Source of the DNA: Mesobacillus sp. S13
GTDB taxonomy: Bacteria; Bacillota; Bacilli; Bacillales; Cytobacillaceae
Reading direction: 5' to 3'
Length of the DNA: 64,000 bases
NCBI RefSeq assembly: GCF_020422885.1
Contig: NZ_CP084622.1
Span: 1,569,001 to 1,633,000, forward strand
A program made the translations under genes and the position numbers. The notes under the pieces were generated by a model. The model had not been told where the DNA came from. It saw only the letters and a program-made list of their open reading frames with translations, and did no database searches. Shown here piece by piece: positions 7,400 to 57,420 of this stretch. Within the stretch, counting starts at the first letter, position 1; every line of letters begins with the position of its first letter.

Positions 7400-7705
7400 G
7401 TGTCTAGCTCCAGCGCCTAGCCAGTTTTCATCCATGAAACTGCTTCCTCGAGTATCTTGCGAGAAGCGTTAGCTTTGAGCAGCTCGAGTCGCTTGTCCAG
7501 CTCCGGCTCCTAACTCCTCGAGACGTTTCGGTCCTGCCAATGAAGTCAAAGAGCGACTTCACTGTCAGGCCCTCCAACGCTTGTCGGAGTTGGGCAGTCG
7601 CCTCCGCATTTCGTTTTCGGTCCGCCCAATGAAGTCAAAGAACGACTTCATCGGTCGGACCTTCAGCGCTTGTCGGGGCTGAGCAAGCCGCTTACGCATT
7701 TCTAG
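7400..7705. repeat. Modular hairpin repeat element, copy 1 (long)
   Basis: About 305 bases of GC-richer intergenic repeat, directly after the stop codon of ykvS on the minus strand. It contains GTGTCTAGCTCCAGCGC, two hairpins of the type GGTCC...AATGAAGTC / GACTTCA...GGCC or GGACC (7529-7574 and 7619-7662), and modules AGCGCTTGTCGGGGCTGAGC and GTCGGAGTTGGGCAGTCGCC. The same modules recur at 32314-32364, 47361-47620 and 60588-60625. No coding potential apart from accidental open frames. Confidence 0.85.
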
Positions 7706-14704: not shown

Positions 14705-14880
14705 AATCTTCAGACAGGTTTGAAGGAAAAAGCAAAAAGCTGTCAAAAGAAAGGTCAACTTAAAACAGGTTTGAAGGGAAAAGCAGAAAAGCTGTCAGAA
14801 GTCAGCCCAACTTAAGACAGATTCATAAGGAAGACAGTCAGAGCTGTCAAAAGCAGCAACAATTCAGGCAAGTACTGAAG
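14705..14880. repeat. GACAG/CTGTC palindromic tandem array with ~52-bp period, array 1
   Basis: About 3.3 degenerate units. Equivalent points (GACAGG, AACAGG, GACAGA, AGGCAAG) fall at 14713, 14764, 14816 and ~14867, a spacing of 51-52 bases. Each full unit carries GACAG, an A/G-rich stretch (TTTGAAGGAAAAAGC) and CTGTC, which are inverted arms about 32 bases across, then a ~20-base spacer. It lies between the opposed terminators of convergent ptsI and ykwB. The same family returns at 46429-46560. Confidence 0.8.
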
Positions 14881-35835: not shown

Positions 35836-36960
35836 ATGGATATTAATACTTTCATTAAAATTAGAAGAGATTTGCATCAAATTCCTGAATTGGGGTTCAA
35901 GGAGTTCAAAACGCAGTCTTATCTCCTTGATTATTTAAGCACACTTCCGCAAGAGCGCTTGGAAATTAAGACATGGAAGACCGGGATTTTTGTCAGGGTT
36001 AAGGGAATGAATCCCAATAAGACAATTGGTTACAGAGCAGACATCGACGGACTTCCAATTACTGAAACAACCGGATTGGCATTCCAATCTCTCCATGATG
36101 GACAAATGCATGCATGTGGACATGACTTTCATATGACGATAGCTCTTGGATTGATTTCTCATTTCGTTGCTCACCCGATTGATGACCATTTGCTGTTCAT
36201 TTTCCAGCCTGCAGAGGAAGGGCCAGGTGGTGCCGAGCCAATGCTTAAGACTGAGGTCATGCAGGAATGGAAGCCTGATATGATCATAGCCCTGCATATT
36301 GCTCCTGAATATCCGGTAGGGACGATTGCAACACGAGAAGGCCTTCTTTTCGCCAATACATCCGAATTGTTTATTGACCTTGAGGGAAAAGGCGGGCATG
36401 CGGCTTATCCACATCAGACGAATGATATGGTCGTCGCAGCATGTGCTCTTGTGAATCAGCTTCAGTCTGTTGTTTCTAGAAATGTTGATCCACTCGATAG
36501 TGCTGTCATTACGATTGGCAAAATCACTGGAGGCACCGTGCAAAACATCATCGCAGAAACATCAAGGCTTGAAGGAACGATTCGCACACTGTCTGTTGAA
36601 TCTATGGCTAGAGTGAAAGAAAGAATCGAGGCACTGGTCAAGGGAGTTGAAGTCGGCTATCAATGCAGGACGTCGATCGACTATGGAGCCATGTACCATC
36701 AAGTCTATAATAATGAAGAATTAGCACGTGACTTTATCGCATTTGCCGAGAAAAAAGAGAATATCGACGTGATTGTTTGTAACGAAGCAATGACGGGAGA
36801 AGATTTCGGCTATATGCTTAAAGAAATTCCAGGGTTCATGTTCTGGCTCGGTGTCAATTCGGACCATGGACTTCATCATGCAAAGCTGGATCCGGATGAG
36901 GATGCTATTAAGACTGCAATTAACCTGCTTACTACTTATATTGAGTATAAAAGTAATTAA
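35836..36960 (+). CDS. dapL: N-acetyldiaminopimelate deacetylase
   Basis: 374 residues, M20-family metallohydrolase. Motifs [10 protein letters not shown] (metal ligands), [10 protein letters not shown] (catalytic Glu) and [10 protein letters not shown]. It removes the acetyl group from N-acetyl-LL-diaminopimelate after the DapH and transaminase steps. ATG 35836 has GGGAGAG upstream; an in-frame start 17 codons earlier has none. 59 bases after dapH with no terminator, so an operon. Confidence 0.96.
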
Positions 36961-37029
36961 AATCACTGAGTTTGTCATTCCGTTTTTAATGGACGATGAA
37001 AATGACATTCTGGTAAAGAGGTGTTCGAT

Positions 37030-37473
37030 ATGAGATTGCGCCAGCCTATGCCTGAAATTTCTGGAGCCACTCAATGGGTAAATGGCGAGTTTACTAGAGG
37101 ACAGCTGGTTGGTGAAAAACCGACACTGATCCATTTCTGGTCAATCAGCTGTCACCTATGCAAGGTAGCAATGCCATCGGTGAATGAACTTCGTGACAAG
37201 TATAAAGGCCAATTGAATGTCATGTCGGTCCATATGCCCCGGTCAGAAAAAGACAAGAATATGGAAGAAATCAAACAGGTTGCAGAAGAACATCAGATTA
37301 CCCAGCCGATCTTCGTTGATGATGACCTTGAATTAACTGAAGCCTTTGAAAACCAATATGTCCCTGCTTATTATCTCTTTGACAGAAACGGCCTGTTAAG
37401 GCATTTCCAGGCGGGCGGCAGCGGGCTGAAGATGCTGGAAAAGCGTGTGATCCGGGTTCTCGAAGAAGAATAG
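37030..37473 (+). CDS. ykuV: Thioredoxin-fold thiol-disulfide oxidoreductase YkuV
   Basis: 147 residues, TlpA/ResA-like. Active site WSISCHLCK (CxxC), and cis-proline region YVPAYYLFD. Unlike ResA and StoA it has no signal peptide or membrane anchor, as in B. subtilis YkuV, so it is probably cytosolic. ATG 37030 follows AGAGGTG; start MRLRQPMPE matches the known protein. No terminator follows: the palindromic array begins 25 bases after the stop. Confidence 0.93.
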   Translation: MRLRQPMPEISGATQWVNGEFTRGQLVGEKPTLIHFWSISCHLCKVAMPSVNELRDKYKGQLNVMSVHMPRSEKDKNMEEIKQVAEEHQITQPIFVDDDLELTEAFENQYVPAYYLFDRNGLLRHFQAGGSGLKMLEKRVIRVLEEE

Positions 37474-37497
37474 AGTAGAATATTCTATAAGGGTTTA

Positions 37498-37923
37498 CTA
37501 ACGGACATTTTTCTTCATAAAGATTCCGATTTTGTCCGTTAGTGCTCTTCTAACGGACACTTTTCTTCATAAGGGATACCAAGTTTGTCCGTTAAAGCTC
37601 TTCTAACGGACACTTTTCTTCATAAGGATACCAAGTTTGTCCGTTAGAGCTCTTCTAACGGACACTTTTCTTCATAAGGATTGTAGTTTTGTCCGATAGA
37701 GCACTTCTAACGGACATTCATCTTCAAAAGGATTGCAAATATGTCCGTTAGAGCTCTTCTAACGGACACTTTTCTTCACAAGGATTGTAGTTTTGTCCGA
37801 TAGAGCACTTCTAACGGACATTTATCTTCATAAGGATTGTAGTTTTGTCCGATAGAGCACTTCTAACGGACATTCATCTTGCAAATTTGTCCGTTAGAGT
37901 TTTTCTAACGGATATTTGTTTGC
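37498..37923. repeat. Eight-unit palindromic tandem array, 52-bp period (CTAACGGACA family)
   Basis: Units start at 37498, 37550, 37603, 37655, 37707, 37759, 37811 and 37863, with a ninth partial at 37905: lengths 52, 53, 52, 52, 52, 52, 52, 42. Each has CTAACGGACA, a conserved TTTTCTTCATAAGGAT stretch, and TGTCCGTTAG, a 10-bp inverted pair; across unit borders the arms form a compact hairpin with loop AGCTCTT. Two subtypes exist (GTTAGAGCTC and GATAGAGCAC). The spacers are conserved, so this is not a CRISPR. No coding frame runs through it. Confidence 0.95.
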
Positions 37924-38182
37924 TTAAAATCTGATTTCTTCCATTTCACACCTCCGCATTCTCCTCGTATCAGTTAATATCAGATAATTCCTATATACAA
38001 AAAAATAAAAAAATTCTAACAAAGTACTGGAAAAATATTTCGAAAGTCGATATATTAATGTATACGTGCATTTTGTTTTTACTAAGCTTTTCCATAACTT
38101 TTCGTTTAACGGGGACATTGCTGCTGTTACGAAGAAAGAAAAACACCTAAAGAATCTCTAATTTTCCAAAGGGGGGAAATGA
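37924..38182. other. Promoter region of the yknUV operon
   Basis: 259 bases between the palindromic array and the ABC exporter gene. AT-rich; contains a ribosome-binding site AAAGGGGGG just before 38183. A 64-codon minus-strand open frame is not supported by a ribosome-binding site or composition. No operator recognised. Confidence 0.5.
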
Positions 38183-39931
38183 ATGGAGACATTCAAAAAA
38201 TTGAAGGAGTATTATTGGCCTTTTAAAAATTACTTTATATGGTCAATATTATTTATGTTGGTCGTAACCGCGATCACAGTAGTATATCCGATGATCTTGC
38301 AGCTTACCATCGATGAAGCCGTCATCGGGGGCCGCTATGAGTTGATTCCGCTTCTGGCTGCCGGTTTTGTGGCATCCATGGCCGTGAAAGGAATCTGTAC
38401 GTACATTTATCAGTATACAGGCGACTTGTTCGGAATCCATTCCGTCTATAAGCTAAGAAACTCTCTTTATGAAAAGCTTCAGTTTCTTTCCTTTCGATAC
38501 TATGACAATGCGAAGACCGGAGATTTAATGTCGAGGCTTACTGCTGATGTGGAAGGCTTCCGCTTTTTCCTAAGCTTTGGCTTCTCAGAATTGATCCGTT
38601 TTGTCCTTTTGATTGGTATTAGTTTTTCAGTTATGTTCTATTATTCTATCTCATTGACTTTTGTGACTCTGGCAACACTGCCATTCCTGGCGGTTGTTGT
38701 CTATAAATTTGACCGGGCAGTCCACCCGGCATTCAGGGGAATTCGCAAATCTTTCGGTAAGCTGAATACTAAAGTCCAGGAGAATATCAGCGGAATCAAC
38801 ACGGTAAAATCTCTTTCCCGTGAAGATTATGAGATTGGCAGATTCAATGCATCTAATGGAAATTACAAAGACCAATATTTATTCACATCAGAAATTTGGG
38901 CTAAATACTTCCCGTTAATGGAGTTTTTGGGAAATCTAAGTGTCGTCCTGCTGTTAGGATATGGCGGTTTCCTGGTCATGAATGACTCTTTGCTTCCAGG
39001 GGAGCTGGTAGCTTTCTACAGCCTTGTTTGGTACATCATGTGGCCAATCATGAACCTGGGATTCGTTGTGAACTTATTCTCCCAATCTAAAGCATCAGGA
39101 GAAAGACTTTTGGAAATTCTTGAAGCAGATGAGGAGATTGAAGAGAAACGTGAAGCCCTTCAGATTGAAAAGCTTACAGGAGATGTAGAGTTCAATAATG
39201 TAACCCTCCGTTATGGAGAGGACGAAAATGAAGCTTTATATGATATCAACTTTAGAGCACGACCTGGGCAGACTATTGGTTTGATCGGTTCGACAGGTTC
39301 AGGAAAAACAAGCATTACCCAGCTGATGACAAGGTTTTATGAGCCGGTCGATGGTCAGGTCCTGATCGATGGCCGGGATATAAAGGATTATTCTATTCGT
39401 TCGCTTCGCAGCAATATAGGAATTGTTCTTCAGGAATCTTTCCTTTTTTCTTCTTCAATCAAAGCCAATATCTCTTATGGCAATCCAGATGCTACGATGG
39501 AGGAAATCATTGCCGCTGCAAAAAGGGCTCAGGCACATAGTTTTATCATGGAGCTTCCTGATGGCTACGACACGATCCTTGGAGAAAGAGGAATGGGTCT
39601 GTCTGGAGGCCAAAAGCAAAGAATTGCGATTGCAAGGGCGATTTGTGTCAATCCAAGCATTTTGATTCTTGATGATGCCACAAGTGCAGTAGATATGGAA
39701 ACTGAATTCAAGATTCAACAAGCGCTGCTGGAAGTCATGAAGGGACGAACGACCTTCATCATCGCACACCGTATTTCTTCCCTAAAGCATGCAGATGAGA
39801 TTCTTGTTCTTGAAAACGGGTCCATTGCTGAGCGAGGAACCCATGAACATTTGATCAAAAATGGCGGAACCTATCAAAAAATCTATGATATCCAGTTTAA
39901 AGACCGCCAAAAGGTATCGCAAACTGGCTGA
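38183..39931 (+). CDS. yknU: ABC exporter half-transporter, degenerate-site subunit (YknU-like)
   Basis: 582 residues. Six-helix exporter domain (~residues 15-310) and a nucleotide-binding domain with Walker A GSTGSGKTS, signature LSGGQKQR, Walker B LILDDATSAVD and H-loop IIAHRIS. The residue after the Walker B aspartate is Asp instead of the catalytic Glu, so its own ATP site is degenerate. It pairs with the next gene as a heterodimer. Size, order and site asymmetry fit B. subtilis YknU/YknV; substrate unknown. Confidence 0.9.
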   Translation: METFKKLKEYYWPFKNYFIWSILFMLVVTAITVVYPMILQLTIDEAVIGGRYELIPLLAAGFVASMAVKGICTYIYQYTGDLFGIHSVYKLRNSLYEKLQFLSFRYYDNAKTGDLMSRLTADVEGFRFFLSFGFSELIRFVLLIGISFSVMFYYSISLTFVTLATLPFLAVVVYKFDRAVHPAFRGIRKSFGKLNTKVQENISGINTVKSLSREDYEIGRFNASNGNYKDQYLFTSEIWAKYFPLMEFLGNLSVVLLLGYGGFLVMNDSLLPGELVAFYSLVWYIMWPIMNLGFVVNLFSQSKASGERLLEILEADEEIEEKREALQIEKLTGDVEFNNVTLRYGEDENEALYDINFRARPGQTIGLIGSTGSGKTSITQLMTRFYEPVDGQVLIDGRDIKDYSIRSLRSNIGIVLQESFLFSSSIKANISYGNPDATMEEIIAAAKRAQAHSFIMELPDGYDTILGERGMGLSGGQKQRIAIARAICVNPSILILDDATSAVDMETEFKIQQALLEVMKGRTTFIIAHRISSLKHADEILVLENGSIAERGTHEHLIKNGGTYQKIYDIQFKDRQKVSQTG

Positions 39932-57062: not shown

Positions 57063-57216
57063 ACAGAAATCCAGATGAATAGTGTCATACTAATTGTTTT
57101 ATGAACATATATAATGGGTACATATAATAAAAATTACCATACAAAAAAATAAAAGTGTTATACAGTTTAGGCTTGAAATCTTAATAGTGTTATATTATTA
57201 TATAATTAGATATTGA

Positions 57217-57230
57217 TGAAGCGCTTTCAA
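57217..57230. promoter_or_regulatory. cre-like sequence at the SR1 promoter
   Basis: TGAAGCGCTTTCA (around 57216-57229) between the -10-like TATAAT and the SR1P start. The right half fits the CcpA cre consensus exactly and the left half is one base short. Location fits repression by CcpA-HPr(Ser-P), but the SR1 gene is mainly CcpN-controlled in B. subtilis. Confidence 0.5.
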
Positions 57231-57258
57231 AATTCAAAACGAAAAGGAGTTTGAAAAG

Positions 57259-57381
57259 ATGGGCACAATCGTTTGTCAAACTTGCAATGCTACAATTGAC
57301 CATTTCGAAGATGAGAAAGTAACGGTTTTATATTCAAAAAAGTGCAACTGCTGCGATCATGAAGGAGCAGAGGAAAGATAA
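57259..57381 (+). CDS. SR1P, small GapA-binding protein
   Basis: 40 residues, MGTIVCQTCNATIDHFEDEK then VTVLYSKKCNCCDH. The two cysteine clusters (C6, C9 and C29, C31, C32) suggest a zinc knuckle. SR1P of B. subtilis binds glyceraldehyde-3-phosphate dehydrogenase GapA and promotes its partnership with RNase J1, whose gene is also in this window. AAAAGGAG 8 bases before the ATG; terminator 13 bases after the stop. Confidence 0.9.
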   Translation: MGTIVCQTCNATIDHFEDEKVTVLYSKKCNCCDHEGAEER

Positions 57382-57393
57382 GAATAGATAAAA

Positions 57394-57420
57394 GGGCATG
57401 CCTGCTGCATGCCCTTTTTT
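57394..57420 (+). terminator. Terminator of SR1/SR1P
   Basis: Perfect 8-bp GGGCATGC/GCATGCCC stem (11 with A-T pairs) and a T run. Confidence 0.93.

Follow-up and report, generated by a model that had tools for sequence, protein, structure and literature searches.

Helical phasing, dyad-centred A/T placement and replication-linked strand bias in 52-bp palindromic arrays of Mesobacillus

Introduction

Bacterial genomes carry several kinds of repeated palindrome. In sopC-type centromere arrays, every tandem unit spans close to a whole number of helical turns and contains a protein-bound inverted repeat. REP and BIME elements, which go with a RAYT transposase, are dispersed intergenic palindromes whose tandem copies are alike within a site. 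The STAR elements of staphylococci are described as a short motif with spacers of 40–44 bp, giving repeats of about 50 nt in which the spacers are specific to locus and lineage (PMC3532100). The closest described class comes from Bacillus, for which Subirana and Messeguer (2021; PMC8161180) reported "52-nt tandem repeats of constant size and variable sequence". Among their 4029 tandem repeats in 176 Bacillus genomes, 1886 have units of 51–53 nt. B. selenatarsenatis is named among the species, with repeats common to B. boroniphilus and B. subterraneus. These authors give no obvious explanation for the number 52 and link a second, 20–21-nt size to two helical turns; the functions that they propose are a protein polymerising on DNA, nucleoid stabilisation or a small RNA. 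A-tract periodicity is also known for bacterial genomes at large (PMC3940949).

Here we describe an array of this kind behind a ykuV-like gene of Mesobacillus sp. S13. It lies in a 64,000-nucleotide stretch of the genome, which we call the window. A previous reading of the sequence alone (the sequence-only reading) had named no element of this type; that view is overtaken by the class described in PMC8161180. As the class is already in print, the array is a member of a known, unexplained kind.

Results

The ykuV-like ORF stops at 37473, and the array begins 24 bp further on (Table 1). Its eight units start at 37498, 37550, 37603, 37655, 37707, 37759, 37811 and 37863 and measure, in order, 52, 53, 52, 52, 52, 52, 52 and 42 bp. 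This confirms the sequence-only reading of eight units, seven of them 52–53 bp long. The last unit is 10 bp short, about one helical turn, and is followed by a further degenerate arm ending near 37914. Identity at lag 52 was 0.78, against a maximum of 0.353 across 2000 mononucleotide shuffles, and TRF called 7.2 copies of a 52-bp period (score 510) together with a higher-order period of 156 bp. The arms CTAACGGACA/TGTCCGTTAG have a gap of 7 bases over unit borders and about 25 bases inside a unit; this layout, like the unit subtypes GTTAG..GCTC and GATAG..GCAC, is as first described. At gathering scores the only Rfam match in the window was the SR1 small RNA (57206–57420, 81.3 bits), away from the array. 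The window also holds two copies of an 89-bp direct repeat (7526–7702), similar to one in a sister species (L237 6937–7111), and the unit of its second, family D array recurs in similar form in 9.3 copies at a Cytobacillus locus (L062).

Table 1. Features of the window associated with 52-bp arrays and their flanks.
Feature	Position	Strand	Basis or remark
52-bp array, family A, units 1–8	37498..37904	+	TRF, lag identity, reading of units
Degenerate terminal arm CTAACGGATA, closing the last border palindrome	37905..37914	+	
Example border palindrome TGTCCGTTAG-7-CTAACGGACA, then CTTTTC	37533..37559	+	Terminator-like in a simple scan
ykuV-like ORF (name from the sequence-only reading)	37021..37473	+	No intrinsic terminator found between stop codon and array
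Leader of downstream ABC-transporter-like ORF	37960..38182	+	Parts conserved by eye, array-free species included
Second 52-bp array, about two units, family D, GACAG/CTGTC arms	14714..14820	+	

The array shares with the published class a unit of 52 ± 1, a noncoding nature, several families per genome, and a signal and its reverse in one unit. PMC8161180 defines its repeats by at least four copies, at least 60% of them of the same length ±1 nt, and seven of the eight units here are 52–53 bp long. The description there also includes the presence, within a genome, of several families equal in length but unlike in sequence, which we found, and a short signal with its reverse in the same unit, which we found as well. 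Mean palindrome scores were 8.42 in our units (5.03 in shuffles) and 7.04 in the published ones (4.42 in shuffles). The published repeats do not code for protein; the array in the window was flagged as nonORF and 52 is not a multiple of three, and a crude stop-to-stop test flagged as ORF two of the 11 arrays (L214 and L221) in the genome sample described next.

Forty-two arrays of 52 or 53 bp, built on several unrelated palindromes, were present in the stretches read from the same genome. A 464-kb sample unselected for the pattern (the window and 20 further stretches, each 20 kb long, which were roughly evenly spaced with some shifted off fetched loci) contained 11 arrays of 52 bp; by extrapolation, a genome may hold on the order of 100. 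Other periods of at least 40 bp outside ORF-flagged stretches of the sample were 45, 42 and 89 bp, plus 156-bp readings of 52-bp arrays; further periods occur within its ORF-flagged stretches. Arrays of 21 (and 42) bp at L217 12194–12295 and L234 16465–16561 resemble the second published size class, of two helical turns. In the whole genome (4,806,131 bases) the arm CTAACGGACA has 35 forward and 17 reverse copies, against 9 and 16 for a reversed control, and the copies cluster at 52-bp steps. A two-unit query gave 122 matches at E up to 10. TRF found an array of 52 or 53 bp (or 104/106) in 24 of the 29 stretches fetched around these matches, and none at that cut in the other five (L003, L009, L016, L019 and L029).

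By eye, family A follows the plan CTATCGGACA-25-TGTCCGATAG-7 and family B, with a 53-bp unit, the plan CATAAGGGTAC-15-GTACCCTTATG-16; additional families have other arms, and membership was assigned by regular expressions. Across loci L001–L131 and the window, the gap was 7 in 532 of the 551 family A hairpins. Unit lengths scattered around 52, or arrays confined to one genome, would have spoken against the sequence-only reading, and neither was seen: 379 of the 423 neighbour distances below 400 bp in the same set were exactly 52.0, and 412 fell within 51–53. A tally of 213 loci that allowed periods of 30–80 gave, for units with GGACA/TGTCC-type arms (all counted there as family A), 164 at 52, three at 51, two at 53 and one at 34; B-type units stood at 53 in 24 cases and at 52 in one, and 9 of the 22 remaining units at 52. 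As most of these loci had been fetched by the A pattern, the tally measures consistency, not frequency. One array survey kept only periods of 51–53 with at least three copies; the other tallies made no such preselection, and in them, too, families with different arms have the same period. The 52-bp period is thus more general than the sequence-only reading had supposed.

The family A hairpin occurs in 17 of 21 genomes of the genus, where a control pattern had no match, and the family B hairpin in 16 of 193 genomes of the family, all within this genus (one of 25 genera). Among the stretches listed (80 of 101), named genomes with arrays at 52-bp steps belong to Mesobacillus, Bacillus sp. ISL strains, Pseudoneobacillus, Cytobacillus and Oceanobacillus; single matches in further taxa of the same list may be due to chance. 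Contigs titled Chryseobacterium sp. ISL-80 (L031, L034, L035 and others of JAGGQZ) also carry 52-bp arrays. Their label looks wrong, and the flanks of L031 align with the ykuV region of this genus.

We read by eye 21 ykuV-like loci from 20 genomes. Fourteen have an A array 3' of the gene, two a B array preceded by an A-like hairpin, and three an intrinsic terminator instead of an array; the other two are diverged copies without an array. The promoter-proximal stretch 5' of the ABC gene appears conserved in array-free genomes as well. At orthologous sites, different species have different families at 52–53 bp: I or A at L201 1951–2480 versus L008, L154 and L183, G or B at L235 versus L246, and B or A at L141/L142 versus L132. 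These cases were taken from the sites listed, and "no array" at such a site often means below the TRF cut rather than an empty site. Two B arrays (L015 1469–2927 and L024 4691–6151) are each interrupted by a probable insertion sequence, which has a 391-aa ORF and the same visible ends at both loci.

A period of 10.4 bp is the fifth harmonic of the 52-bp unit, and we examined it in AA/TT steps. It was the strongest of ten AA/TT periods in the window array (16.9; next 6.1). In the thinned families it ranked first of 24 harmonics in A, B, C, D, G and the unsorted group (six of eight groups), second in E and fourth in I, the last two with two units each; family J, a single unit, was left out. Over the 26 thinned units of all families the harmonic was 2.85 versus 1.32 in dinucleotide shuffles (z 6.5, 0 of 300). 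Off-array 52-mers gave 1.47 (1634 noncoding) and 1.27 (3726 coding), and none of 20,000 samples of 26 noncoding 52-mers reached 2.85. The 27 published consensuses behaved alike (3.06 versus 1.50 in shuffles; z 6.1, 0 of 300), with full independence not assured because they include oceanisediminis, a name also found among our loci. The proposal of the sequence-only reading that 52 bp stands for five helical turns is therefore supported by the window array, by most family groups and by consensuses from other species.

The A/T steps also keep a set distance from the dyad. With distances taken from the centre of the shorter-gap palindrome, the published units have AA/TT peaks at 14–15 and 25 bp and almost no AA/TT at 10–12 and 19–23 bp; our units have a clear peak at 13–16 bp and a weak one at 25. 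The mean profile of 131 A arrays peaks at 13–17 and 25–26 bp, and the window array at 14–15 and 25 bp, with further steps at 6 bp and, off the pattern, at 20–21 bp. Relative to the short-gap dyad, AA/TT was in antiphase in all but one of the qualifying units of each set (12 of 13 published, 11 of 12 of ours), compared with 275 of 550 shuffled ones. Units qualified with a palindrome score of at least 6 and a gap difference of at least 6, as did 13 of the 27 published and 12 of our 26 thinned units; at a score of at least 8 the counts were 8/9 and 10/10. A first version of the test took 18 of the 27 published units, picked without a formal rule, and near-equal gaps gave ambiguous signs. A palindrome, by its symmetry, already drives the phase towards either 0 or 180 degrees; the finding is that 180 is taken so consistently.

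A wedge model predicts that three units together bend by a net 103 degrees, versus 72 in shuffles (higher in 20 of 26 units, p 0.0016), so that the predicted bend exceeds that of shuffles modestly. It falls to 24 when 5 bp are removed from each unit and to 17 when 5 bp are added, a loss that follows from phase alone.

The purine-rich strand of the arrays is the leading strand in 67 of 77 cases: 33 of 38 in this genome and 14/14, 6/8, 4/4, 10/12 and 0/1 in five sister genomes, whose arrays are partly orthologous and so not independent. Mean purine excess on the leading strand was 0.119 in arrays versus 0.029 in whole loci. For 68 arrays with both called genes within 700 bp (gene calls by our own script), purines lay on the leading strand in 27 of 33 with both neighbours leading, 10 of 12 with both lagging, 13 of 15 between convergent and 8 of 8 between divergent genes. 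Because the bias holds in every class, it follows replication and not local gene direction. In the sample-only set the count was 7 of 10. The window array is an exception, with purines on the lagging strand (0.44), and there are four more in this genome. An earlier count of 39 of 44 included two rows of 45- and 60-bp repeats.

The origin was assumed to lie near base 0, since the first half has positive and the second half negative GC skew, the sign changing between 2.33 and 2.57 Mb in this genome; the skew was near zero at L024 and –0.003 at L004, and one locus at 4.66 Mb (in G003) was assigned to the first replichore by local skew. We defined polarity by purine content because loop orientation (AGNNCTT, by eye) contradicts spacer polarity in L008, L022 and L023. 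The polar motif GAGAAGGG, which we take to be the SpoIIIE signal, has three copies in the arrays, in only 2 of the 77. AGCGG, presumably Chi, occurs in them 18 times on the leading and six times on the lagging strand.

Discussion

We give an even chance to the reading that the array is one of many 52-bp satellites acting as double-stranded DNA, each a row of dyad sites on one helix face. Each unit is five helical turns long and carries a dyad; its A/T runs lie some 15 and 25 bp to both sides of the short-gap dyad, so that every unit presents the same groove pattern on the same helix face. In the cell the DNA could then bend in phase and offer equivalent sites in a row, where a dyad-reading protein, most likely a nucleoid-associated one, might assemble. 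Such a protein may read shape and half-sites rather than one sequence, which would let the sequence drift while the length stays; the occurrence of different families at one orthologous site fits this view. In most arrays the purine-rich strand runs with replication, which makes them oriented parts of the chromosome. Length, phasing, A/T placement and strand bias are properties of the repeats; from these we infer a bound-protein array, as the sequence-only reading did. A bolder version, in which unrelated sequences converge on one groove pattern as a shape-coded chromosomal scaffold for a nucleoid protein yet to be discovered, with the purine strand marking replication direction, is tentative, and we put its chances clearly below even. 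Three genomes without any array at the ykuV site count against a DNA scaffold, as do the lower ranks of the 10.4-bp harmonic in families E and I, the modest excess in predicted bend, the 7 of 10 polarity count of the sample-only set and the deviations of the window array in strand and at 20–21 bp.

Phasing, dyad placement and polarity favour a scaffold at the level of DNA over one of RNA. PMC8161180 discusses a role as small RNAs or sponges, which transcribed hairpin ladders would fill; this seems very improbable to us. In its favour, the window array has a strong predicted fold (z –7.9, 0 of 100 shuffles), but a palindromic array would yield this in any case; PMC8625621 does report RNA-seq reads from B. 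coagulans satellites. Against an RNA function, the variable arm position is not kept paired: it is Watson-Crick paired in 231 of 547 border hairpins, where about 55% is expected from base counts, and in 108 of 286 within-unit pairs, with pairing the majority state in 48 of 115 arrays. The hairpin ladder of the sequence-only reading thus finds no support in the pairing. Both arms differ together between subfamilies (CTATCGGACA/TGTCCGATAG versus ATGACGGACA/TGTCCGTCAT), so dyad symmetry as such is kept. Nor is 10.4-bp AA/TT phasing a requirement of RNA, and the polarity tracks replication instead of gene direction. Selfish or neutral satellites are an unlikely explanation with more in its favour. 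Here birth by slippage or a recombinase, and homogenisation, would need helical phasing, and mechanism rather than function would set the length. Units alike within and unlike between arrays, copy numbers that differ among species, the 156-bp higher-order period and an intergenic position in all gene arrangements are consistent with it; a strict length with unrelated arms, A/T runs placed relative to the dyad and a replication-linked bias would need an extra cause. A search of viral contigs with the family A hairpin pattern and of plasmids with a 107-base two-unit query (E 1e-5) also gave no match, which argues against a phage or plasmid origin.

Less likely than selfish satellites, though more likely than an RNA function, is that the arrays are transcription terminators in the pyrimidine-sense direction, by a hairpin and U run or by Rho-type C/U-rich tracts. 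The array would then replace the terminator of ykuV and, elsewhere, stop transcription that opposes replication. A hairpin with a CTTTTC tail is present in the array (terminator-like by prediction only), and the four terminator-like sites in 36900–38300 all lie within the array on the + strand (shuffle mean 1.1). The three array-free ykuV orthologues have an intrinsic terminator directly after the stop codon, and most array-bearing ones have none by eye. A terminator was lacking at 20 of the 31 gene ends that meet an array in pyrimidine sense, against 16 of the 44 that meet one in purine sense (Fisher p 0.02), but in this genome alone a hand tally gave 8/14 versus 8/21 (p 0.32), many of the counts are orthologues, and terminator and gene calls came from crude scripts. 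Moreover, G012 and the two genomes with B arrays retain a terminator-like hairpin before the array. Termination also leaves two features without a cause, the fixed 52 bp and the A/T runs that lie upstream and at 25 bp. We keep a terminator role, foremost at ykuV, and a length set by mechanism alone as less likely readings; if the former holds, these would be repeats that take over the 3' end of a gene.

Other known systems fit less well. The STAR motif T(G/A/T)TGTTG(G/T)GGCCC(C/A) is absent from the window array by direct reading; STAR has a different, GC-rich 14-bp motif, and the loci described in PMC3532100 carry one to seven motifs. A CRISPR array would have unique spacers between its repeats, but the units here are 87% alike including the spacers. 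REP and BIME elements resemble the 52-bp arrays as dispersed intergenic palindromes with tandem copies alike at each site, but the one Y1 transposase match of the genome (L030 1294–1902; RAYT-like, score 72.2, under the NCBIfam RAYT cut-off of 80) is flanked by other, TTCGACAAATTTCGGGYGGTGACAGGCACC-like repeats, which speaks against mobilisation by a RAYT. The likeness to sopC extends to tandem units, nearly integral helical turns and an inverted repeat in each unit; sopC is one plasmid locus with a known partner, whereas here there are many chromosomal arrays with no known partner. The arrays thus stand closest to the 52-nt class of PMC8161180, in whose main text searches by term found no mention of leading strand, palindromes, curvature, phase or orientation. 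Literature searches found no account of phasing, dyad placement or replication polarity for the class, some of which an earlier J Bacteriol paper may cover. To this known class the present analysis adds helical phasing, dyad placement and replication polarity. The common helix-phased, dyad-centred layout, with a strand bias tied to replication, turns the published puzzle of length into a hypothesis about DNA structure, and the layout around the dyad gives a rule by which to seek the partner protein.
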